This document shows positions 47,000 to 57,542 of a DNA stretch of 64,000 bases, one piece after another; the stretch's first letter is position 1; each line of letters opens with the position of its first letter. Made by a program: the position numbers and the translations under genes. The DNA is from Streptomyces sp. SAI-127 (lineage in GTDB: Bacteria > Actinomycetota > Actinomycetes > Streptomycetales > Streptomycetaceae). The notes beneath the pieces were generated by a model that saw only the letters and a program-made list of their open reading frames with translations, was not told the DNA's origin and searched no databases. The stretch covers positions 9,010,501 to 9,074,500 of the forward strand of contig NZ_JARXYJ010000001.1 of NCBI RefSeq assembly GCF_029894425.1, in the 5' to 3' direction.

Positions 47000-48475
47000 C
47001 TAGGCCCCGGTCAAATTCAGCACGGAAGACCCTTCCAAATTTCTCAGAAAATCCCTCATCTGACTAGTCGAGAATATTCGCGTATTGGCGCGCATGAGGA
47101 TCTCGGCACGGTGAGTGCGGCAGTCAATTGAAAAAAAGAGATTCATGTCCTCTCGATGCAAGCCTGCCCCGACGTCGATCCGGGTCTCCCCAGTCAAGCG
47201 TTCGACATCCTGAGGCGCCGCGACCTTCAGCGCGCCTCTTTCTCGCGTCGATGGACCTGACTCCCGGGACAATTTCGTGTTCACGGCACAAGAGAGATCC
47301 GGATTGAATCCCAAACTCCCCGACACACTGGAGAGCAAGGAAGGGAGGCGAGTCGGGTTGTACTGTCCGTAGAAGCTGCCGCTGAGAGTCGTTTGATCAA
47401 TGTCTCGTGCCACTTCGAGGAGCGTTCTACCAGCCACTTCCACATAGAGGGGGAAGTCCTGGACCAGGGGACCGGAAAGCTTGGCCCAATTCCGGCCGTA
47501 GCGATTGTGAGTGAAGACAAGAAACCCGACCCCAGCGTTTCCGTTTATTGCAGAAAGAAGCGTGGCAGTGAGCCCGATAAACACTGCGCCAACACCCACC
47601 TTCGCCCTCTGCGCCAGAGCACGGCAGGTCGCAGCGAGTGCTGCAGAATCCATGCTGATCTCCCTGAAAGGCGCACCGTCTGGTTTACCTTCTGCCGCCG
47701 GGAGAGAATTTTCAGGGAATCGTGATATTTGCTTACCCCAGTATTCAAGTGACCTTTCGGAACATCTGACCCCTTGCGCACCCTGTTCGAATTCGAGCCT
47801 TTCGTGGACCTGGGTCGGAAAGCTTGAGAGCAGGTCGAAAATCCCGTCTCGGAGCGAGCCCATGATTGATGTCAAGTCGTCGACGATGCGACCCGCTCCC
47901 CAGGCGTCGGTCGCCATGTGAAACGCACAAAGAACGAGCATAACTGGTCTTTGCTCTTCAGTGATCAGGGCGACTCGCAGCGAGACCTCCGGCGCGGTGA
48001 ACGGAGCGGCGCAGAGCCTCTCCTTCACTGCACGAGCGACGTCACGGCAATCCGCGCCTGCTGCTTCGTACTCCTCGACCGTCAACTCTCCTCGGTCGGC
48101 AACGACTTGGCGCGGTCTGCCACGCTCATCGAGATGGAATCGAGTCCGGAGCGCTTCGTGTCGGTGCATCAGTGCTGATATCGCCCTGAGTGTGGAGCCG
48201 AGAGGAAGCCCGGACGGAACTGGAACAATCCGCCCCAGATTCATGCGTTCGATGTTCGGGGCGGTGAGAACGATCCCTCTCCAAAGCCATTCTTGAGACC
48301 ACGTTAACGGGTAAGTACCGTGTCCGCTGCCGGAGAACTGCACAGTGTGAATGGTTGACGGTCCGGCCAGGATGGGTTCGAATGCTGGCAGGTTGCGCAA
48401 ATCACCCTCCATTTCTATTGCGGTTGAGACCGGGCGGGGCCTACTGGTTCGGGGCGACTTCTCCGCTTCCCTCAC
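47000..48475 (-). CDS. Free-standing condensation-domain-like protein 1
   Basis: A 491-aa protein with the NRPS condensation (C) domain plan: PLTWSQEWLWRGI near residue 57, MHRHEALRTRF at 103-113, and the active-site region CAFHMATDAWG. Here the HHxxxDG motif reads F185-H186-M-A-T-D190-A, keeping the second His and the Asp but losing the first His and the Gly. It is unlinked to any adenylation or carrier domain, so it may condense or transfer carrier-bound groups in trans. Base composition is visibly less GC-rich than the flanks. The start is uncertain (GTG 48475 or ATG 48412); neither has a good ribosome site. Confidence 0.75.
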   Translation of the reverse strand: MREAEKSPRTSRPRPVSTAIEMEGDLRNLPAFEPILAGPSTIHTVQFSGSGHGTYPLTWSQEWLWRGIVLTAPNIERMNLGRIVPVPSGLPLGSTLRAISALMHRHEALRTRFHLDERGRPRQVVADRGELTVEEYEAAGADCRDVARAVKERLCAAPFTAPEVSLRVALITEEQRPVMLVLCAFHMATDAWGAGRIVDDLTSIMGSLRDGIFDLLSSFPTQVHERLEFEQGAQGVRCSERSLEYWGKQISRFPENSLPAAEGKPDGAPFREISMDSAALAATCRALAQRAKVGVGAVFIGLTATLLSAINGNAGVGFLVFTHNRYGRNWAKLSGPLVQDFPLYVEVAGRTLLEVARDIDQTTLSGSFYGQYNPTRLPSLLSSVSGSLGFNPDLSCAVNTKLSRESGPSTRERGALKVAAPQDVERLTGETRIDVGAGLHREDMNLFFSIDCRTHRAEILMRANTRIFSTSQMRDFLRNLEGSSVLNLTGA

Positions 48476-49081: not shown

Positions 49082-49474
49082 CGAAGAACTGTGCGATCCC
49101 TGCTCGCTTGGTGCACCGCATCAACTGCGGCAACCGGCCTCGGTCAAGACCAGCTCCGCCTTTGCGGCTGCCCGGCCGCGGCTCGTCCGCAAGACCCTTC
49201 AGCCGCACAACCGCGAACCGCGAGGCACTTGCGCACCCTCATCTCATTCACGCCCAAGCCAATGGCCTCTGGGCGCTTGACGCACCGTCCGTGCAGCCCA
49301 AGATGATCTGCGCGCGGTCGGCCGGCCCTCTGCTCTGCCTGCCGCCTGTAGCAACGATTCGAGGCGCTCCTCCGCAGAGAGGAGGATCTCGACAGCCCAT
49401 AGACCTCTATGCGACATGGAAACATTATTCGGACTTACAGGTTAAATCGCATCACGCTAACGGAGGAGCTCGGC

Positions 49475-49577
49475 GTGCGCAGCGCCTTCTGGGAACTGGA
49501 TCAGCGGTCTCGACCTCAGCTTCCTCGACTTGGTCATCGGCGGCCGCTCCGCCATCTGGATCGTCGAATGCCTTTGA
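49475..49577 (+). pseudogene. Small ORF with strong ribosome site and apparent frameshift
   Basis: AACGGAGG at 49459-49466 sits 8 bases before GTG 49475, which opens VRSAFWE. One base later the coding bias moves to another frame reading WISGLDLSFLDLVIGG, then RSAIWIVECL and a TGA at 49575-49577. If one base (for example C at 49496) is an insertion or sequencing error, the product is a hydrophobic peptide of about 33 residues ending in Cys-Leu. It lies 150 bp before the second condensation-like gene. The function is unknown. Confidence 0.3.
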
Positions 49578-49726
49578 ATTGGGGGGCAGATGACGGAGGT
49601 TTTCGGCCTTCGGATTTACCGAACTTTGGAATTCATCTGTCGAGGGCACAGTTGTCAGGCGCTTTCTGTCCGTGTTGGATGATCGTGACCAGCAGCTCAA
49701 CTGCGCACCCTCGGCAGGGAGTACCG

Positions 49727-51064
49727 GTGAGAAAAGTTCCGATTACCCTGGAAGGCCACCGCGACGCGAGCGCCCCTCTCACCTGGCCGCAGCGCAGAAC
49801 CTGGCGGGGTTCCAGACTCAAACACCGGCTCTGTCGCGTCATACCTCTTCCAGCAGGAGTCACTCTGGACCAGGTCCGCGGCGCGCTGCAATGGGCGTAC
49901 CAAGAGTTTGAGGCGCTACGGACCACGTTCCCGACCGATGCGGACGGGGTCCCGTGTCAGAAGGTTGAGGCCCGGGGGGAGATCGACATCTCCGTCCTGG
50001 AGAGCGGCGAGGACTGCGTCGAGGCTGACGTGGACGCGGTTGCCCAGGTGTTCCGGCGTGAGCTGCACGATCCCGCGGTCGATCCGCCCGTACTCTTCGC
50101 CGTGGTGGTGGTCGGCGAGCGTCCGGCGTACCTGGTTACTGCGGCTTCTCATCTCGCCCTGGACGCCTTGGGGTTCAGGGTCCTGCGAAACGCGCTGAAC
50201 GACTACCTTCTGCTGGGCGCGTGGAAACGTCCCAAAGGGTCCAGTCTGCAGCCGATCGACCGAGCACGCTACGAACAGTCGCCGACAGGGCAGGAGAAGA
50301 ATTCCGTCGCGCTCGCGTACTGGCAGAAAGTGCTGGCCGCGTGCCCGCACAGGGACGAACTGAGCCGGGCTGCGACGATGGATTCCCCGGCGGTCAGGGC
50401 GGCCGTGGCTGTCCTCGCCAAGCAGCGCAAAGTCAGTACGTCCATAGTTTACCTGGCAGCGGTGGCCGTGATTACGGGAGCGCTCACGAGGCGAAGTGCG
50501 GCATCATTTCGCGCGGCCGCCTCCAATCGTCGTGACGCGCGGGAGCGGTATTGCGTCGGTGAACTCGTGCAGTTCATGCCCGGGTTGATCGAAGAACTGG
50601 ATGCGCCCTTCACAGAAATCATCAAGGGTGCGTGGGAGGCGAGCATCCGGGGTTTCCGCTTCAGCCATTATGACGAGGAGGCACTGCAGGAGATATTCCG
50701 GGAACTGGACGGCGTTGAGCTCGACTTCGCGTACAACGACTCCCGGAGCGCTGGCCAGGATTCACCTGTAGAGAACTCCGGTGATGACCTGAACTGTATG
50801 GATGCCACGCGGATCGAGCCAGTGAGGGGAGCGTTCAGGACCGACAGCCGTTTTCTGTCGGTCATCGTCCGCGATGGGGCCGGGAAGGAAGGAGCGGTGC
50901 TCGGCGTGGTCGTGCACGACGCCTACTTCCTTGAGATCCGTGTCGAGCAGGTTCTTCTCGCCCTCGAAGCTCTGATCGTGGGTGCGGCACGGGGTGAAGC
51001 GGAGCCGGCCGAGCACCCGCTGCGGTTCACGAGGGCTTTCCTCGGGGAGCGCACAGACCGCTGA
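49727..51064 (+). CDS. Free-standing condensation-domain-like protein 2
   Basis: A 445-aa paralogue of the protein at 47000-48475. Shared landmarks are APLTWPQRRTWRGS near the N-terminus, EFEALRTTF at 61-69, and the active-site region AASHLALDALG, where HHxxxDG reads S141-H142-L-A-L-D146-A. The catalytic second His and the Asp survive; the first His and Gly do not. The GTG at 49727 follows AGGGAG at good spacing and aligns with the start of the shared region. No carrier or adenylation domain is attached. It probably works with the downstream cluster, but its activity (condensation, epimerisation or acyl transfer) is unproven. A hairpin follows the stop. Confidence 0.78.
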   Translation: MRKVPITLEGHRDASAPLTWPQRRTWRGSRLKHRLCRVIPLPAGVTLDQVRGALQWAYQEFEALRTTFPTDADGVPCQKVEARGEIDISVLESGEDCVEADVDAVAQVFRRELHDPAVDPPVLFAVVVVGERPAYLVTAASHLALDALGFRVLRNALNDYLLLGAWKRPKGSSLQPIDRARYEQSPTGQEKNSVALAYWQKVLAACPHRDELSRAATMDSPAVRAAVAVLAKQRKVSTSIVYLAAVAVITGALTRRSAASFRAAASNRRDARERYCVGELVQFMPGLIEELDAPFTEIIKGAWEASIRGFRFSHYDEEALQEIFRELDGVELDFAYNDSRSAGQDSPVENSGDDLNCMDATRIEPVRGAFRTDSRFLSVIVRDGAGKEGAVLGVVVHDAYFLEIRVEQVLLALEALIVGAARGEAEPAEHPLRFTRAFLGERTDR

Positions 51065-51126: not shown

Positions 51127-52209
51127 TCAGCTACGGTCTGCGCGTCGGCGGCGCACGGCCTCCGCCAGCTCAGCGAGCAGTTGTTCGGTCTCGTCCCAAC
51201 CGACACAGGCGTCGGTGACGCTCTGTCCGTAGGCGAGCGTCTCCAGCGGTCCCGGGTCCTGCCGACCCTCGGTGAGGAAGCTCTCCACCATCAGGCCGGC
51301 GATCCCAGGTTCCCCTGCGGCGATGCGCGCGGCGACGTCCCGCACGACTGCCGCCTGGCGGACATGGTCCTTGCCGCTGTTTGCGTGGCTCGCGTCGATG
51401 ACCAGACGGGGTTCCAGCTTGGACTTGACCAACAGGGCGATCGCGTCGCGGACGCCCTCCGGGCCGTAGTTCGGACCGCCTCGTCCGCCGCGCAGGATGA
51501 TGTGGCCGTCCGGGTTTCCGCTGGTGGAAACGATGGAGGCACGGCCCTCGTCGTCAATGCCGAAGAAGACGTGGTCGCTGGCCGAGGCTCGGCAACCGTC
51601 GATGGCCGGCATCACGTCCCCGTCCGTCGCATTCTTGAATCCGACGGGCATCGACAGTCCCGAGGCGAGCTGACGGTGCACCTGGCTCTCCGGCGTGCGT
51701 GCGCCGATGGCGCCCCATGTCACCGCGTCGGAGATGAACTGCGGGCTGGTCGGCTCCAGGAACTCGCAACCGACGGGCAACCCCGTGTCGAGCACGTCGA
51801 GCAGGACTTGACGTGCCAGACGCAGCCCCAGTTGTACGTCGTGCGTGCCGTCCAGGTGCGGATCGTTGATCAGCCCCTTCCAACCGACGGTCGTACGAGG
51901 CTTCTCGAAGTACACCCTCATCACCACGCACAGCTCGTCACTGAGCGGGGCGACCGCCGCAGCCAGCCGGTGTGCGTAGTCCCTGGCCGCAGCCGGGTCG
52001 TGAACCGAGCAGGGGCCGACGACCAAAAGCAGCCGATCGTCTTCGCCGGTCAGCACTTTCCTGACGGCGTGGCGACTGCTCTCCACCAGGGTTGCGCGGG
52101 TCGGCCCCAGCGGAAGCTCATCGCGCAGGACGGCGGGAGCGACGAGGGGCTGGAAGCCGGTGACACGAAGGTCGTTGGTCTGGGGTGAGACGCCGGTCGG
52201 TGTTGTCAT
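51127..52209 (-). CDS. DAHP synthase, type I (AroFGH-like)
   Basis: A 360-aa 3-deoxy-7-phosphoheptulonate synthase that condenses PEP and erythrose 4-phosphate, the first step of the shikimate pathway. Motifs of the AroFGH (type I-alpha) family are LLLVVGPCSVHDP, RVYFEKPRTTVGWKGLINDP, LPVGCEFLEPTSPQ, GARTPESQVHRQLASGLSMP and VIDASHANSGKD. Streptomyces primary metabolism normally relies on a class II enzyme, so this copy is likely pathway-linked. The gene has its own leader with an aromatic attenuator (52294-52414). It follows the cluster operon on the same strand, 232 bp after the kinase gene. Confidence 0.95.
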   Translation of the reverse strand: MTTPTGVSPQTNDLRVTGFQPLVAPAVLRDELPLGPTRATLVESSRHAVRKVLTGEDDRLLLVVGPCSVHDPAAARDYAHRLAAAVAPLSDELCVVMRVYFEKPRTTVGWKGLINDPHLDGTHDVQLGLRLARQVLLDVLDTGLPVGCEFLEPTSPQFISDAVTWGAIGARTPESQVHRQLASGLSMPVGFKNATDGDVMPAIDGCRASASDHVFFGIDDEGRASIVSTSGNPDGHIILRGGRGGPNYGPEGVRDAIALLVKSKLEPRLVIDASHANSGKDHVRQAAVVRDVAARIAAGEPGIAGLMVESFLTEGRQDPGPLETLAYGQSVTDACVGWDETEQLLAELAEAVRRRRADRS

Positions 52210-52293
52210 GGAGGAGGATCCCGTCCCTTTTCACAAGGCGGTCCGGTTCCGTCCGTGTCTTCCACACCCGGGCCGGCCCGCCGTAACGACGAA

Positions 52294-52318
52294 GGGCAGA
52301 GACGGATCGTCTCTGCCC
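52294..52318 (-). terminator. Attenuator terminator hairpin
   Basis: Perfect 11-bp stem GGGCAGAGACG / CGTCTCTGCCC with a 3-base loop, between the leader peptide and the DAHP synthase start (about 85 bases upstream of it). A short U-containing stretch (TTCGTCGTT) follows in the transcript. It is the default stop signal of the attenuator. Confidence 0.85.
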
Positions 52319-52322
52319 TGCA

Positions 52323-52378
52323 GGCTCCGGGTGAAAGGTCGGTCAGCGCACGTGACCCCTGGCTCCACCCGGAGCCAG
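52323..52378 (-). promoter_or_regulatory. Competing RNA helices of the attenuator
   Basis: In transcript order, CUGGCUCC and GGAGCCAG (52378-52359) form a local 8-bp hairpin with loop GGGU. The distal element ACCCGGAGCC (52332-52323) is a perfect 10-bp complement of GGCUCCGGGU (52376-52367), the 5' arm plus loop. The two helices exclude each other. The distal helix ends 4 bases before the terminator stem, so the choice can decide terminator formation. Confidence 0.7.
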
Positions 52379-52414
52379 CGGAAAGCGCCAATACCAACGA
52401 TTCGCCATGGACAT
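52343..52414 (-). CDS. Aromatic leader peptide of the DAHP synthase attenuator
   Basis: A 23-codon ORF starting ATG TCC ATG (or 21 codons from the second ATG at 52408). From the second Met it reads MANRWYWRFPLAPGG and ends RGHVR-stop. Five consecutive codons give Trp-Tyr-Trp-Arg-Phe (TGG TAT TGG CGC TTT), with TAT and TTT rare in Streptomyces. The local hairpin begins two codons after Phe, so stalling there would change folding. A TAGCCT -10-like hexamer at 52426-52421 lies 6 bases before the first ATG, which suggests leaderless translation, as known for streptomycete trp leader transcripts. No ribosome-binding site is visible. Confidence 0.75.
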   Translation of the reverse strand: MSMANRWYWRFPLAPGGARGHVR

Positions 52415-52420
52415 GCACGT

Positions 52421-52426
52421 AGGCTA
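52421..52426 (-). promoter_or_regulatory. Putative -10 element of the DAHP synthase leader
   Basis: TAGCCT on the minus strand matches the TAnnnT core and stands 6 bases before the leader ATG, so transcription would start at or next to that codon. No good -35 is seen. Confidence 0.45.
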
Positions 52427-52441
52427 GCACGTCACTGCGGC

Positions 52442-53425
52442 CTACATGTACTGCGCCGCCTCCGCGGCCAGCCGACACCACCAGGCGAACTCGTCGGTGC
52501 GGCCTGTCGATTGGAGGTCCAGAGCAATGCGCCACCCCCGCAGGAGCAGCCCGCAGAACGCGGTCATCGCCGCGTGCCGGTGGTGCAGAGCGGGGTCGAG
52601 CGCCGACACGTCCGTGTACAGGTCGACCACCTGCTGCGGGCCAAGGCTCAGACAGCCCGAATTGACCGCGATGAACCAGCCGAGCTCCACACAGGCCGGG
52701 CCGCGGACCGCCAGCGCCCAGTCGATGAGCCACAGCACGCCCGATCGGTCGAGCCCCATGTTGTCCAGCTTGAGATCACCGTGCAGAGAGGTCGTCGGCA
52801 GTACTGCCAGGGCGGGGGCGAGGACGGCGGCGTCGGCGCGGACAGCCTCGACGAGATCGCGTACGTCGCGGGGAGCTCGACGGGCGAACAGTTCCCATCC
52901 CGTCCGGACCTGCTGGGCCAGGCCGTTCATGTCATGCCCCCCGCGCAACGCGCGGATTCCCCGAGTCAACAACAGCAGTCGGTCTTCGAGACTGCACCAG
53001 TAGTGGGCGGGGGCCTCGTACTGCTCCGCGTGCAGGGCCGCCATGCCAGTGATCACGCCTTCGAGGGCCGGCCTGTCGAGAACGCGGAGATCCATGCGAT
53101 CGGAGATGTCCCGCATCAAGGTGTAGAAGTGCCGTCCCGCTCGCACGCCGTCCACTGCCGCGGAACGGACGCGCTCACCGAGCAGCAGTCCGACTTTGGC
53201 CAATCCGCACTCGCGCCCGTGGACGTCGGCCGTGGCCTTCATGATCCAGTCGTCTCTGCGGCAGGTGCGCTTGAGCACCCAGGATCGGCCGGCGCCGTCC
53301 CGGCCCGCGAGCAGCGTCGCGCCGGAGAAGCCGCCGTGGGACAGCGGCCGCCAGTCGACGCCGCTCAGGCCATGTCGCGACAGCAGGGCGGGGACCGGCT
53401 CGTTCCGGTCACGGAGTTGGGCCAC
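52442..53425 (-). CDS. Aminoglycoside-phosphotransferase (APH)-fold kinase
   Basis: A 327-aa small-molecule kinase. Motifs include HGGFSGATLL (Gly-rich loop), the Lys in WVLKRT, the catalytic loop HGDLKLDN (HGD at residues 215-217) and the metal site LIDWALA (IDW at 234-236). The fold phosphorylates hydroxyl groups of antibiotics, sugars, choline or homoserine. In this cluster it may modify an intermediate or give self-resistance. The GTG start shares one base with the stop of the cupin-like gene (TAGTG), so translation is coupled. It is the last gene before the attenuated DAHP synthase. Confidence 0.82.
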   Translation of the reverse strand: MAQLRDRNEPVPALLSRHGLSGVDWRPLSHGGFSGATLLAGRDGAGRSWVLKRTCRRDDWIMKATADVHGRECGLAKVGLLLGERVRSAAVDGVRAGRHFYTLMRDISDRMDLRVLDRPALEGVITGMAALHAEQYEAPAHYWCSLEDRLLLLTRGIRALRGGHDMNGLAQQVRTGWELFARRAPRDVRDLVEAVRADAAVLAPALAVLPTTSLHGDLKLDNMGLDRSGVLWLIDWALAVRGPACVELGWFIAVNSGCLSLGPQQVVDLYTDVSALDPALHHRHAAMTAFCGLLLRGWRIALDLQSTGRTDEFAWWCRLAAEAAQYM

Positions 53426-54180: not shown

Positions 54181-55034
54181 GCTGGTCCTCCAAGGTCATC
54201 TGTGGACTGCGCCGCGAAGCGCTCGTACGGGCCGATGAGTTCGGCCACCTGGTGGGGCACCCCCTTTCGTGCTTGGTCCGCCTGCGGAGCGCGAAAGGTG
54301 AACGTCGCGGCGCGGCGCACGCCGTCGAGGGCTCCGGGCGCGCGGAACAGCTCCGGTTCGGGCTCCCGGATGATCGACGCGTCGAGTGCGTCGGGATCGG
54401 TGGGCCAGTGGACGGCGGCAGGCGTGTAGGCGAGGCCGTGCCGGGCGAACAGCACCGGCAGGACGTCCTCGGGCTTCCTCTCCGCCAGGGCGTCGGCTGC
54501 GAACGCGGTGACGCGCAGGCCGCTGTCGCGGGCCCGTCGGTGAAGGGCGAGGGTGTGCCGGAACGCCGCGACGAAGACCTCTGTGTCGATGCCGCCGAAT
54601 GTGCCGTTCGCTCGGTACAGCTGCAGCCAGGACAGGTACATGTCAGCGGGATGCCTGAGCGTCACGATCACGCTGAGGCGAGAGGGACGCTCCAGGCCGC
54701 TGAGCACGGCGACCGGGTCGAACAGGGACTCGGCCAGGAGGAAGGGTCCGAGGGTTTCCTTCAGCACCACCGGTCCGGGACCGGAGGGGAGGACGAACCG
54801 GGAGTCCTCCCCGATCAGCGTGTGCCGGACGATTCGTTTGAACGGCTGGAAGTAGGCACGGTGTCCGGTGGCGGCGGTCGCGCGCAGCACGGCGGTGGTC
54901 CCGGACCGGCACGGGCCGACGACGAGGGCAATCTCGGATGGTTCCCGCTCCCTGGGCAGGTTGACGCGGGCGCGTATCTCCTCCTCGCCAACGGTGTCGG
55001 GGAAGGTCCGGGGAGAGGCGGCGGGCTGGATCAC
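54177..55034 (-). CDS. Sulfotransferase-like P-loop protein
   Basis: A 285-aa protein with a 5'-PSB-like loop GPCRSGTTAVLRA at residues 40-52, where PAPS-dependent sulfotransferases bind the 5'-phosphosulfate. The segment LSVIVTLRHPADMYLSWLQLY matches the 3'-phosphate-binding region (RxPxxxxxS pattern) of the family. It could sulfate a hydroxyl of the product, or a precursor. The GTG at 55034 overlaps the stop of the HprK-like gene as GTGA; the longer frame was rejected. Supply genes for PAPS are not in the window. Confidence 0.72.
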   Translation of the reverse strand: MIQPAASPRTFPDTVGEEEIRARVNLPREREPSEIALVVGPCRSGTTAVLRATAATGHRAYFQPFKRIVRHTLIGEDSRFVLPSGPGPVVLKETLGPFLLAESLFDPVAVLSGLERPSRLSVIVTLRHPADMYLSWLQLYRANGTFGGIDTEVFVAAFRHTLALHRRARDSGLRVTAFAADALAERKPEDVLPVLFARHGLAYTPAAVHWPTDPDALDASIIREPEPELFRAPGALDGVRRAATFTFRAPQADQARKGVPHQVAELIGPYERFAAQSTDDLGGPA

Positions 55035-56185
55035 AACAGTTCTCCCATGGCGCTGGCAAGCCAGTCGAGGTAGTCGGCGTAGCAGCCCCTGACGGTAATG
55101 ACGCGGCACTGCGCGACCAGCCGATCCAGCAGGTCGGAGTCCGTCGCGGTACTCCCGGGTGCCGGGGGAAGGGGAGCCTTCAGCCATGGGCGGTGGGTGT
55201 TGCCCGGGCTGTCCTTCCGCAGCTGGTTGTGCCGCACCAACTCACGTGCCCGGCCCGGGTCACACACCACCTCGGCCCGCACGGAGCCGGCGGTGGCATC
55301 GATCTGCGGCAGCAGGAGCGTCGCCGGTCGGGCGCTCGGTGTGGTGCCGACGCCGAAGTGGCCGGTGAGTGCTGGCACGTCGACCAGCACCTTGCCTTCG
55401 ACGGCGGCTTCCCAGTCGGCGCCCCCGGTGAGACTGTCCAACGGCTGTCCGGGGCCGAACACCACGGTGTGCACGTTGACGCGAGCCGGGACCCCGACCA
55501 TGACGACGCCTTGGCCGTCCGGTCCGACGCTCAGGCGGTCGGCGGTCACGAAGTCGTATCCGGCGCCCAGCAGAGCCAGCAGCGCGGTCGTCTTGCCCGC
55601 GTTGCGGTCGCCCAGTATCGCCACGCCCCGTTCCTCGCGCACGGCGGCGGCCGCGTGGAAGATGCGGAAACCGCTCCTGTGCTCGACACGCTGGAGCAAC
55701 TGGTCCCTCAGCAGGACCCGGGCTTGCAGTCCGACCTCTACGGTGCTGGATCCGACCACCAGCGCGTCGCGGCGCGCCTCGTCCACGGCGATCACGACGT
55801 CGGGACTGCGCCGCCGGGCCAGCGTCAACCCTGCGCCGCACCCGTGGAGTTCGGGCCGGTCGCGGAAAACGCGCATGTCCGTGCACGGCGTCCCGGTCGC
55901 GGGCGGTCCGTCAATGAGCAGTTTCAGGGTCAGGTCGGGGGCGCGCGGAGGACGACCCGGCACCAGGGCGTAGTAAGGGTGGTAGAAGTCCGTGAGACTT
56001 GCCAGCAGTGCCTCGTCGTCGCTGGCGACGCGGATGAGGACCCCGAGCCGTTCCGTCCACCGCTCATGCTTCGGACGGCGGTGGCGGTGCGGCAGCAGCC
56101 GTCGGACGGCGTCGTCGCACCAGCCGGAGTGCGGGGCTGTGCCGTGCGCCTCGGTGAGCATGGTCACGGGCCTGTGCTCAGACAT
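55031..56185 (-). CDS. HprK-like P-loop kinase
   Basis: A 384-aa protein whose C-terminal half carries a Walker A GDRNAGKTT (residues 192-200) in the setting FHAAAAVREERGVAILGD, typical of HPr kinase-like proteins that occur in actinobacterial RiPP and other clusters. The classical HPr kinase catalytic loop is hard to recognise. Relatives in lasso-peptide clusters phosphorylate a peptide residue; here no precursor or HPr is adjacent, so the acceptor is unknown, perhaps a carrier-bound intermediate. The ATG at 56185 overlaps the class II DAHP gene by 8 bp. A later start (56161) is possible. Confidence 0.68.
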   Translation of the reverse strand: MSEHRPVTMLTEAHGTAPHSGWCDDAVRRLLPHRHRRPKHERWTERLGVLIRVASDDEALLASLTDFYHPYYALVPGRPPRAPDLTLKLLIDGPPATGTPCTDMRVFRDRPELHGCGAGLTLARRRSPDVVIAVDEARRDALVVGSSTVEVGLQARVLLRDQLLQRVEHRSGFRIFHAAAAVREERGVAILGDRNAGKTTALLALLGAGYDFVTADRLSVGPDGQGVVMVGVPARVNVHTVVFGPGQPLDSLTGGADWEAAVEGKVLVDVPALTGHFGVGTTPSARPATLLLPQIDATAGSVRAEVVCDPGRARELVRHNQLRKDSPGNTHRPWLKAPLPPAPGSTATDSDLLDRLVAQCRVITVRGCYADYLDWLASAMGELL

Positions 56186-57542
56186 GGAGGAGGTCGACCA
56201 GGCAGAAGGCAAGTTCCAGCGCCTGCTCATTGTTCAGCCGGGGGTCGCAGGCCGTCTCGTAGCGGGTCACCAGGTCGGATTCCGTGATGTTGCCGGCGCC
56301 GCCGAGACACTCGGTGACCGGCTCCCCGGTCAGTTCGATGTGTACGCCCCCGGCATGTGTCCCCTCCTGCTCGTGGATGGCGAAGAACGAGCGCACCTCG
56401 GCCACGATGTCCTTCCAGTGGCGGGTCTTCTGCCCGGTCGCTGCCGTGAAGGTGTTGCCGTGCATCGGATCGCAGGACCAGACGACCTGGTGCCCCTTGG
56501 CACGGACGTGCCGGACCAGCGGCGGCAGGTTCTCGTCGATCCGGTCCTTGCCCATGCGCACGATGAAGGTCAGGCGCCCCGGATCGTTGCCGGGGTTCAA
56601 CCGCGCCACCAACGCGTCGACCTCGTCGGTGGTCGTCCCGGGACCGAGCTTGCAGCCGACCGGATTGCCCACGCCCGAGAAGTAGTGGACATGGGCGCCG
56701 TCGGGGTCCCTGGTCCGCTCGCCGATCCACGGGAAGTGAGTCGAGACGTCGTAGTACTCGCCGGTCAGGGAGTCGGCGCGGGTCAGGGCCTCCTCGTATC
56801 CGAGGAAGAGCGCGTCGTGGGACGTGAAGAGCTCGACCTGCGAGGTGACCGAATGATCGACGGGCATCCCGCAGGCGCGGGCGAAGCCCAGTGCGTTGTC
56901 GATCTCGGTGGCCACCCGCTCGTAGTCACGTCCCCGTGGGCTGCGCCGGACAAATTCTCTGTTCCACGCGTGTACCTGACTGAGACTCGCGAATCCGCCG
57001 TGCGTGAAGGCGCGTACCAGATTGAGTGTGGCCGCCGACTGGTCGTAGACCCGCAACAAACGCCACGGATCGGGGCGCCGCGCCTCGGGCAGGAACGCGA
57101 GGTCGTTGGCGGCCGGACCGCGGTACGACTCGAGCGTCACCCCGTCGATGGTCTCCGTCTCGCTGGAGCGGGGTTTGGCGAACTGCCCTGCGATGCGGCC
57201 CACCTTCAGCACGGGTGCCTTGGAGCCGTAGGTGAGGACGATGGCCATCTGAAGGAGAACCTTGAGCTTGTCCCGGATGTTGTCCGCCGTGAACGCCTCG
57301 AAGGTCTCGACACAGTCGCCGCCCTGGAGGAGGAAGCTGCGCCCGGCGCAGACCTCCGCCAGCTGGTCCCGCAGCGTGCGGATCTCTCCCGCGAAGACCA
57401 GCGGGGGGCGCCGTGCGATCTCCTTGAGTACGGCCTCGTACTCCGCCTGGTCGGGCCAGTTGGGTTGCTGTGCGATGGGATGGTTCCGCCAGGACGTCGG
57501 CGTCCAGCTCTTCGATACGGAGATGTCGCGGTTTACGGTCAT
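56178..57542 (-). CDS. DAHP synthase, class II
   Basis: A 454-aa class II (plant/Mycobacterium-type) 3-deoxy-7-phosphoheptulonate synthase. Signatures are SFLLQGGDCVETFEAFTAD, KVGRIAGQFAKPRS, SHFPWIGERT-like context (STHFPWIGERTRDPDGAHV), GVGNPVGCKLGP, RMGKDRIDENLP and WSCDPMHGNTF. Most Streptomyces carry one housekeeping copy; this one is inside a biosynthetic operon, so it is probably dedicated. RifH-type aminoDAHP synthases belong to the same class, so an amino substrate is possible. The gene lies 49 bp after the SDR gene and overlaps the HprK-like gene. Confidence 0.95.
   Translation of the reverse strand: MTVNRDISVSKSWTPTSWRNHPIAQQPNWPDQAEYEAVLKEIARRPPLVFAGEIRTLRDQLAEVCAGRSFLLQGGDCVETFEAFTADNIRDKLKVLLQMAIVLTYGSKAPVLKVGRIAGQFAKPRSSETETIDGVTLESYRGPAANDLAFLPEARRPDPWRLLRVYDQSAATLNLVRAFTHGGFASLSQVHAWNREFVRRSPRGRDYERVATEIDNALGFARACGMPVDHSVTSQVELFTSHDALFLGYEEALTRADSLTGEYYDVSTHFPWIGERTRDPDGAHVHYFSGVGNPVGCKLGPGTTTDEVDALVARLNPGNDPGRLTFIVRMGKDRIDENLPPLVRHVRAKGHQVVWSCDPMHGNTFTAATGQKTRHWKDIVAEVRSFFAIHEQEGTHAGGVHIELTGEPVTECLGGAGNITESDLVTRYETACDPRLNNEQALELAFCLVDLLHV

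Follow-up and report, generated by a model that had tools for sequence, protein, structure and literature searches.

In Corynebacterium glutamicum, a DAHP synthase gene, aroF, is preceded by a short ORF, aroR, with consecutive aromatic codons (Phe-Tyr-Phe) at which ribosome stalling has been proposed (PMC11802643, PMC4046766, PMC7356990). According to the passages of a review that deal with this system, stalling in aroR enhances aroF transcription under phenylalanine limitation, and tyrosine availability has no effect (PMC11802643, citing Neshat et al. 2014); a second paper, in its passage on aroR, calls the control by phenylalanine translational (PMC7356990). The leader analysed here resembles aroR by description, being a short ORF that immediately precedes a type I DAHP synthase and has TAT and TTT close together, accompanied by two TGG. 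It differs in its sensor, which is Trp-Tyr-Trp-Arg-Phe, that of C. glutamicum lacking Trp, and, unlike the C. glutamicum account as given in these passages, the present one comprises competing, covarying RNA arms and extends to many other genera and to a second type of gene behind the leader. The first-pass annotation of this DNA had considered a leader that reads Trp, Tyr and Phe together before a DAHP synthase to be a different design, a view that the aroF/aroR precedent does not support (PMC11802643).

Leaderless ORFs with regulatory codons and hairpins are also found in Streptomyces lividans, where the trpE leader TrpL1, MFAHSTRNWWWTAHPAAH, is of this kind but reads Trp only, precedes another gene and has a different sequence (PMC8079986). 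In the sections of that study that describe them, seven of the eight amino acid leaders are termed leaderless, the -10 consensus is TAnnnT, and none of the 8 precedes a DAHP synthase. The E. coli trp and pheA attenuators, as outlined in part of PMC11802643, share with the present locus tandem regulatory codons, alternative helices and a terminator-like hairpin. A survey of actinobacterial attenuators (Seliverstov et al. 2005; PMC1262725) likewise describes leader ORFs with hairpins, located before trp, ilv, leu and cys genes; its relevant passages report that no conserved RNA structure was observed upstream of Phe/Tyr operons, and the terms 'aroF' and 'DAHP' are absent from its main text. The portion of a C. 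diphtheriae transcriptome study that covers leaders gives those of trp, ilvB and leu and none for a DAHP synthase (PMC5784534). Among the matches listed in a search of the open literature at the level of titles and abstract openings, with subscription papers mostly outside its scope, no such leaders appeared for Streptomyces, Mycobacterium or other genera. The kind as such, aromatic attenuation of a DAHP synthase, is known from C. glutamicum, and in the open literature we found it described for Corynebacterium only.

The present leader lies on the minus strand of a stretch of 64,000 nucleotides from Streptomyces sp. SAI-127 (hereafter the window, that is, the whole stretch of DNA analysed), with its -10 element 15 nt past the stop codon of an APH-like gene (Table 1). 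The elements reported at first pass, namely, TAGCCT six bases before the ATG, the leader codon run, the local hairpin P1, the 11-bp hairpin T and the type I DAHP synthase downstream, are present base for base; the perfect alternative helix A1:A3 indeed has no mismatch, but it is 11 bp long rather than 10 bp. Tandem regulatory codons in a short leader ORF are a feature of trp-type attenuators that the window displays. The 147 nt of the leader region fold with z = -4.83, and 0 of 200 shuffles were equally stable. No known Rfam element was found: the 5 matches in window 51900-52900 were all far below the gathering score, and no family reached it in 6 relatives; nor did any NCBIfam leader family match at E ≤ 1 for the five leaders tried.

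Table 1 Parts of the leader region and the gene behind it, in window coordinates.
Feature	Position (strand)	Remarks
-10 element TAGCCT	52421..52426 (-)	6 nt 5' of the leader ATG (52414); predicted leaderless transcription start at or beside the ATG
Leader ORF, 23 codons, MSMANRWYWRFPLAPGGARGHVR	52343..52414 (-)	Stop TGA 52345-52343; relatives keep the ORF
Leader codons: ATG TCC ATG GCG AAT CGT TGG TAT TGG CGC TTT CCG CTG GCT CCG GGT GGA GCC AGG GGT CAC GTG CGC TGA	(-)	
Sensor TGG TAT TGG CGC TTT = Trp-Tyr-Trp-Arg-Phe	52382..52396 (-)	Final TTT 5 nt ahead of arm A1
Arm A1 GGCTCCGGGTG	52366..52376 (-)	Inside leader codons Leu-Ala-Pro-Gly-Gly
Local hairpin P1 (A1:A2), CTGGCTCC-GGGT-GGAGCCAG, 8 bp	52359..52378 (-)	Arms 52378-52371 / 52366-52359
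Arm A3 CACCCGGAGCC	52323..52333 (-)	Perfect 11-bp complement of A1; 9 nt past the leader stop
Hairpin T, GGGCAGAGACG-ATC-CGTCTCTGCCC, 11 bp, intrinsic-terminator-like	52294..52318 (-)	Sequence and covariation
Tail of T, TTCGTCGTT, weak U-tract	52285..52293 (-)	
Arm A5 region GGCGGGCCGGCCCGGGTG	52265..52282 (-)	Able to pair with A3 around T (weak)
Hairpin P6, CCGGACCGCC with GGCGGGCCGG	52237..52246 with 52282-52273 (-)	Pairing possible; by eye, from an alignment of close relatives
Type I (AroFGH-type) DAHP synthase, 360 aa	51127..52209 (-)	PF00793, E 8.8e-84

A single type I DAHP synthase was found in the genome, and class II DAHP synthases occur at two places, one of them inside the window. 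The other class II gene (G000:C1:7627748-7629044; L174, L175) is matched in two pieces in different frames (profile positions 4-83 and 80-438), suggestive of a frameshift, an assembly error or something else. The same-strand neighbours of the type I gene, that is, the class II DAHP synthase, an SDR, a DegT-type aminotransferase, an AMP-binding enzyme and a carrier/nucleotidyltransferase protein, make a biosynthetic cluster likely. Two free-standing condensation-domain-like proteins are encoded beside the DAHP synthase on opposite strands (window 47000-48475 (-) and 49409-51064 (+)), and the product of window 55031-56230 (-) shows a weak, below cut-off match to HprK-related kinase B (TIGR04355). 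A tblastn search with 14 window proteins against four Streptomyces relatives (19 kb each) found little of the cluster: apart from the DAHP synthase, weak similarity to the AMP-binding and DegT proteins was all that appeared, near two of the four (the other loci in the neighbourhood comparison were shorter, 4-7 kb). The gene neighbourhood as the unit of inheritance is not supported by this search, and because so little of the cluster surrounds the relatives' genes, the leader goes together with the DAHP synthase and not with the cluster. 'Cluster-linked', the earlier epithet of the enzyme, is likely to be apt for the window but fits the four relatives poorly.

At 52 of 91 whole-genome loci (L082-L172, of which two are partial matches), the 450 nt upstream include a short ORF with three or more W/F/Y in 5 residues, compared with 2.25% of shuffles. 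At the class level, the type I enzyme is encoded in 78 of 394 genomes, 52 of which also have the leader, detected by peptide or covariance model; outside family f17, the fraction is 52/55, and within f17, it is 0/23. Leaders were found in 19 of the 30 sampled genera with the enzyme. Among 80 named loci, 28 have the same leader type, the genera being Streptomyces, Glycomyces, Isoptericola, Puerhibacterium, Catellatospora, Mycobacterium, Mycolicibacterium, Dietzia, Amycolatopsis, Tsukamurella, Rhodococcus, Williamsia, Nocardia, Antrihabitans, Gordonia, Micromonospora, Paractinoplanes, Arthrobacter, Kribbella and Microbacterium; among those that lack it are the actinobacterial loci named as Nocardiopsis, Murinocardiopsis, Gryllotalpicola, Bifidobacterium and Gardnerella. 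Within Streptomyces, a match to the DAHP synthase was obtained in 14 of 295 genomes, and five of these (window included; 78-100% identity) have the leader, which was not seen at the other nine; the more distant DAHP synthases within the genus, L087-L095, have no such leader. A DNA pattern for the sensor and A1/A2 matched once in each of 6 of 392 Streptomyces genomes, with a DAHP synthase just downstream every time (the sixth being L185), and the reversed control pattern gave 0 among the matches listed. Judging from the sequences compared, the leader ORF, its leaderless start, the alternative helices and the terminator-like hairpin are conserved across many actinobacterial genera. The aromatic codon run, the persistence of which alongside the hairpins was at issue in the first-pass annotation, is kept in close relatives, whereas distant ones keep the helices with one Phe codon left.

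The collection of 76 leaders on which we draw below was gathered with a Y..F pattern, after four non-actinobacterial matches and one duplicate locus were dropped; it includes at least two duplicate contigs (L008/L141, L031/L157). All 76 have TANNNT 5-8 nt ahead of an in-frame ATG or GTG, compared with 3.1% when the upstream sequence is shuffled, and this -10/start spacing supports the leaderless start of the leader ORF that was predicted from the window alone. Sensor codons were counted in these 76 leaders and L097, L099, L101 and L113 (n = 80); L041 (Paractinoplanes, AFYWF), L140 (WYAYE), L119 and L122 (RFYG, weak model matches) and L185 are in neither set.

In 59 of the 76 leaders, the strongest A1:A3 helix outscores 95 or more of 100 shuffles. 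In an alignment made with MAFFT only for 38 of the 76, from which the Rhodococcus-like group and near-duplicates were excluded and on the choice of which the counts depend, the structure consisting of A1:A3 and T has 90.3% paired cells (81.5% when shuffled), 16 pairs with two-sided changes (7.1) and a covariation of 0.255 (0.109); 0 of 500 shuffles reach the paired fraction, the two-sided changes or the covariation, and slid versions pair 37-49%. By helix, two-sided changes affect 6 of 14 pairs in A1:A3, 10 of 11 in T and 3 of 8 in P1. The score of A1 against A3 is 32.1 within a leader and 24.9 across lineages, the leader's own score being above the cross-lineage median in 46 of 52. In the comparison of homologous leaders that the first-pass annotation had proposed, aromatic codons are thus kept and both A1:A3 and T covary. 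A chance ORF is ruled out by the frequency of aromatic ORFs relative to shuffles, the -10/start spacing and the helix covariation. In the Rhodococcus/Nocardia-like leaders (L018, L025, L028, L162, L164-L166 and their kin), the hairpin that follows A3 overlaps it and is trailed by few U, and in some of them, sequence close to the ribosome-binding site is able to pair with A1 (partly by eye).

Sequence and comparison together show a leaderless-type aromatic ORF with an aromatic codon (mostly UUU) before A1, a choice of A1 between A2 and A3, a hairpin T right behind A3, and linkage to a DAHP-synthase-type gene. We consider it quite likely that this is a ribosome-mediated attenuation leader of the aroF/aroR kind, usually led by Phe. 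Transcription would start at the start codon of the ORF, and a ribosome would load at once on the leader start; the place on the aromatic codons at which it slows would set whether A1 is masked or free and, hence, which helices form. Scarcity of charged Phe-tRNA would then increase DAHP synthase expression, the switch either altering the use of T or acting downstream of it. Tyr and Trp would be auxiliary signals or ones tuned to the lineage, and in some Streptomyces, it is Tyr that holds the key place. As a whole, the leaders form a widespread actinobacterial RNA switch family that probably senses Phe supply, often together with Tyr and Trp.

All three of Trp, Tyr and Phe occur in the five-codon sensor of 63 of the 80 leaders, and their order varies (WYWRF, WYRRF, WYPRF, WYTRF, YWRF, YFWF, WYAYF, YRWF, YYWF). 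Trp is present in 66 and missing in 14, Phe is missing in 3 and Tyr in 0, although in the 76 leaders Tyr is present by construction, being part of the Y..F search pattern; in L097 and L101, found without this pattern, Ser occupies that Tyr place, yet Tyr is kept beside Phe. The last sensor codon, which adjoins A1, is the most constant one, being TTT in 71 of 80, TTC in 4, TAT or TAC in 3 (all Streptomyces) and AGC in 2. Four Streptomyces leaders with the sensors WYWRY or WYQRY (L002, L085, L086 and L185, the last with TAT) end in Tyr and have no Phe in the sensor. These four are a natural test of which amino acid is read at the last place.

The Tyr and Phe codons of the sensors are TAT 99, TAC 4, TTT 76 and TTC 13, compared with TAC 270, TAT 1, TTC 382 and TTT 1 in 52 DAHP synthase genes of the same loci; the P values of this bias ignore relatedness and are hence inflated, so that we use the effect size alone. 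In 12 window ORFs, TTT makes up 15/219 and TAT 9/133, that is, these codons are rare yet present in the genome. Among the remaining sensor codons, 111 of 124 have G or C at the third position (leader codons outside the sensor, 67-69%), which indicates that the T-ending bias is special to Phe and Tyr codons. Bacteria generally read both Phe codons with one anticodon, and likewise both Tyr codons, and are not known to have different isoacceptors for these two amino acids. Slower wobble reading of UAU and UUU in the sensors could account for the bias; the theory of regulatory codon choice, in the part of PMC1183508 that sets it out, concerns different isoacceptors.

The covariance model of the leader (R1) has matches in 65 of the 394 class genomes, of which 46 lie, by coordinates, just upstream of a type I DAHP synthase. 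For 18 of the other 19, similarity to one DAHP-synthase-like/chorismate-mutase gene begins 48-860 nt downstream; the 19th (G557, E 0.007) is apparently a chance match within a coding region. The three products of the 18 that were scanned match chorismate mutase type II (E 6.1e-08, 1.4e-10 and 2.5e-08) and part of DAHP_synth_1 (E 1.8e-09, 1e-04 and 4.1e-07, the second below the family cut-off), and the NCBIfam matches of such products agree with Pfam but are below cut-offs. All 18 chorismate mutase-linked (CM-linked) leaders have the leaderless-type -10/start arrangement and TTT two codons before Pro, and 0 of 18 have a Trp codon; in three, MKRCSVFTEPAPESRS, MNRCSAFIRPAPESRSPDA and MDRCSVFTEPAPEGRS, TTT is the sole aromatic codon. 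Seventeen of them belong to f17 and one to f19, a family that also has DAHP synthase leaders. In f17, the 23 genomes with the type I enzyme are without the leader, and 17 without an enzyme match have it before the DAHP-like/chorismate mutase gene. The fusion genes carrying the same leader element are L216-L234 except L231 (for example, L216:448-1401, L234:415-1335 and L228:389-1555); in the three products scanned, DAHP_synth_1 is matched only from profile position ~77-95 on, the N-terminal part being unmatched, so that the DAHP domain of the fusion may be degenerate or regulatory. Because chorismate mutase feeds the Phe and Tyr branch alone, the absence of Trp codons fits the gene, a fit that is confounded with phylogeny, with 14 DAHP synthase leaders also lacking Trp.

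The first-pass annotation had proposed that the switch shuts off the first shikimate step only when all three aromatic amino acids are abundant, that is, an AND gate in which Trp, Tyr and Phe stalls are equivalent. Such a gate would account for the frequent joint presence of W, Y and F in several orders, and the absence of Trp from the 18 CM-linked leaders, the gene of which would feed only the Phe/Tyr branch, is in its favour. In the window, however, folding with a masked ribosome predicts differing RNA states for different stalls: P1 with A3:A5 in the absence of a ribosome, A1:A3 for a stall at the first Trp or at Tyr, a mixture at the second Trp (sensor position 3), A3:A5 at Phe, and, with the ribosome at the stop codon, A1:A3 if pairing around the ribosome is allowed, which may be impossible. 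In group means, a Phe stall favours pairing of A3 with downstream sequence over A1:A3 in 4 of 8 groups (Streptomyces, Micromonosporaceae-like, Dietzia and Arthrobacter), a shift absent from the means of the other four. Furthermore, the reported response of C. glutamicum is to Phe and not to Tyr (PMC11802643, in the passage cited above), sensors without Trp or without Phe still precede a DAHP synthase, and all 18 CM-linked homologues keep the element and UUU without Trp. The triple gate therefore appears doubtful to us, and AND logic over three amino acids is not borne out.

Phe is favoured as the usual main signal because of three lines of evidence together, namely, the place of its codon beside A1, the leaders with a single UUU and the C. 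glutamicum reports; the Streptomyces leaders with Tyr beside A1 suggest a change of signal in some lineages.

The E. coli trp and pheA attenuators are not leaderless, and in them, antiterminator and terminator are mutually exclusive. Classical trp-type transcription attenuation on this model would explain the intrinsic-terminator form of T, which is an 11-bp hairpin with a tail weak in U in the window; tails richer in U, with a mean of 5.6 in 8, occur in the CM-linked group. Constrained folding for an antiterminator, however, found none in 8 of 9 groups, the window's included, and such exclusion was not found there: in the window's group (six Streptomyces/Glycomyces leaders), T pairs with a mean probability of 0.91-0.92 across the eight ribosome states, in 8 of 9 groups (66 of 76 folded leaders, with transcripts ending with T), the value never drops below 0.69, and in the CM-linked group, it is 0.93-0.94 in four states. 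Given that T pairs in all ribosome states, no leader helix appears to switch it off by competition, contrary to the textbook terminator/antiterminator exchange. The exception is the Rhodococcus/Nocardia-like group, in which a competing hairpin does follow A3, its mean pair probability being 0.15 with the ribosome at Tyr, 0.60 at Phe, 0.48 at the stop and 0.29 without a ribosome; yet, seven Rhodococcus-like leaders with a clear GAGCCGG/CCGGCTC hairpin have 0-2 U in the next 8 bases. T itself is probably a real terminator, as far as folding predictions go, but as an account of the switch, trp-type attenuation seems to us rather improbable.

The switch might instead act after T, on mRNA translation or stability, by way of A3:A5 and P6, in which case T would be a fixed partial terminator or pause. 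In the 52 leaders outside the Rhodococcus-like group, A3 complements a stretch 4-31 nt past T, and in 24 of these, the pairing surpasses 95 or more of 100 shuffles; the downstream GGTGCC of several Mycobacterium-type leaders can pair, by eye, with GGCACC overlapping the ribosome-binding site, and aroR control is termed translational in the passage of PMC7356990 noted above. Against this, the other 28 of 52 fail the shuffle threshold, including the window, where 21 of 100 shuffles are as good, and the within-lineage signal is weak (22.2 within and 19.6 across lineages, own score higher in 39 of 52), which makes A3:A5 much less sure than A1:A3 and T. A1 pairs with the stretch after T no better within than across lineages (15/52), the predicted accessibility of the Shine-Dalgarno sequence hardly differs among ribosome states, and the review excerpt describes the C. 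glutamicum effect as transcriptional (PMC11802643). We thus regard a post-T switch as a tentative option at best. That the leader ORF encodes a conserved small protein instead of an attenuator is very improbable: the short ORF is conserved with its APGGA stretch, but the conserved residues coincide with the covarying RNA arms, the same arms encode other residues elsewhere (ALEEP, PARTP), and no NCBIfam family was matched at E ≤ 1 by the five leaders tried.

A more specific version of the preferred reading, an attenuation leader usually led by Phe, is one to which we give even chances. It posits a leaderless attenuator family across actinobacteria that is built around one aromatic codon at A1 (UUU, or UAU/UAC in some Streptomyces), in which the gene would have changed, being type I DAHP synthase in most families and the DAHP-like/chorismate-mutase fusion in others, the codon set would follow the gene, the rare wobble-read UAU and UUU would be held, and terminator/antiterminator exclusion would mostly be absent.

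These leaders turn a single Corynebacterium example into a testable family (present in 19 of the 30 sampled genera with the enzyme) and add genes of the Phe/Tyr branch to an actinobacterial survey that, in the passages cited, observed none (PMC1262725). The natural series of sensors, with three aromatics, two, or one Phe codon, and with Phe or Tyr in the key place, could reveal which codon position the leader reads, and the near-exclusive UAU and UUU in the sensors of high-GC genomes offer a clean case in which to test whether wobble decoding tunes attenuator sensitivity. Regulation at the first step of the shikimate pathway, next to what is likely a biosynthetic cluster, would also be useful in strain engineering.

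Outside the actinobacteria, aromatic-rich short ORFs precede proteobacterial type I DAHP synthases in L051 (Burkholderiales; FYFYFFAY), L067 (Leisingera; FWYFFYPR) and L063 (Pseudogemmobacter; VWFYYFR), each followed by a hairpin-like stretch and a T-run. Of the loci L048, L051, L067 and L081, which were at first dropped as chance-like, L051 and L067 resemble independent aromatic leaders on re-reading, and by their sequences, the proteobacterial ORFs are apparently independent aromatic attenuators.
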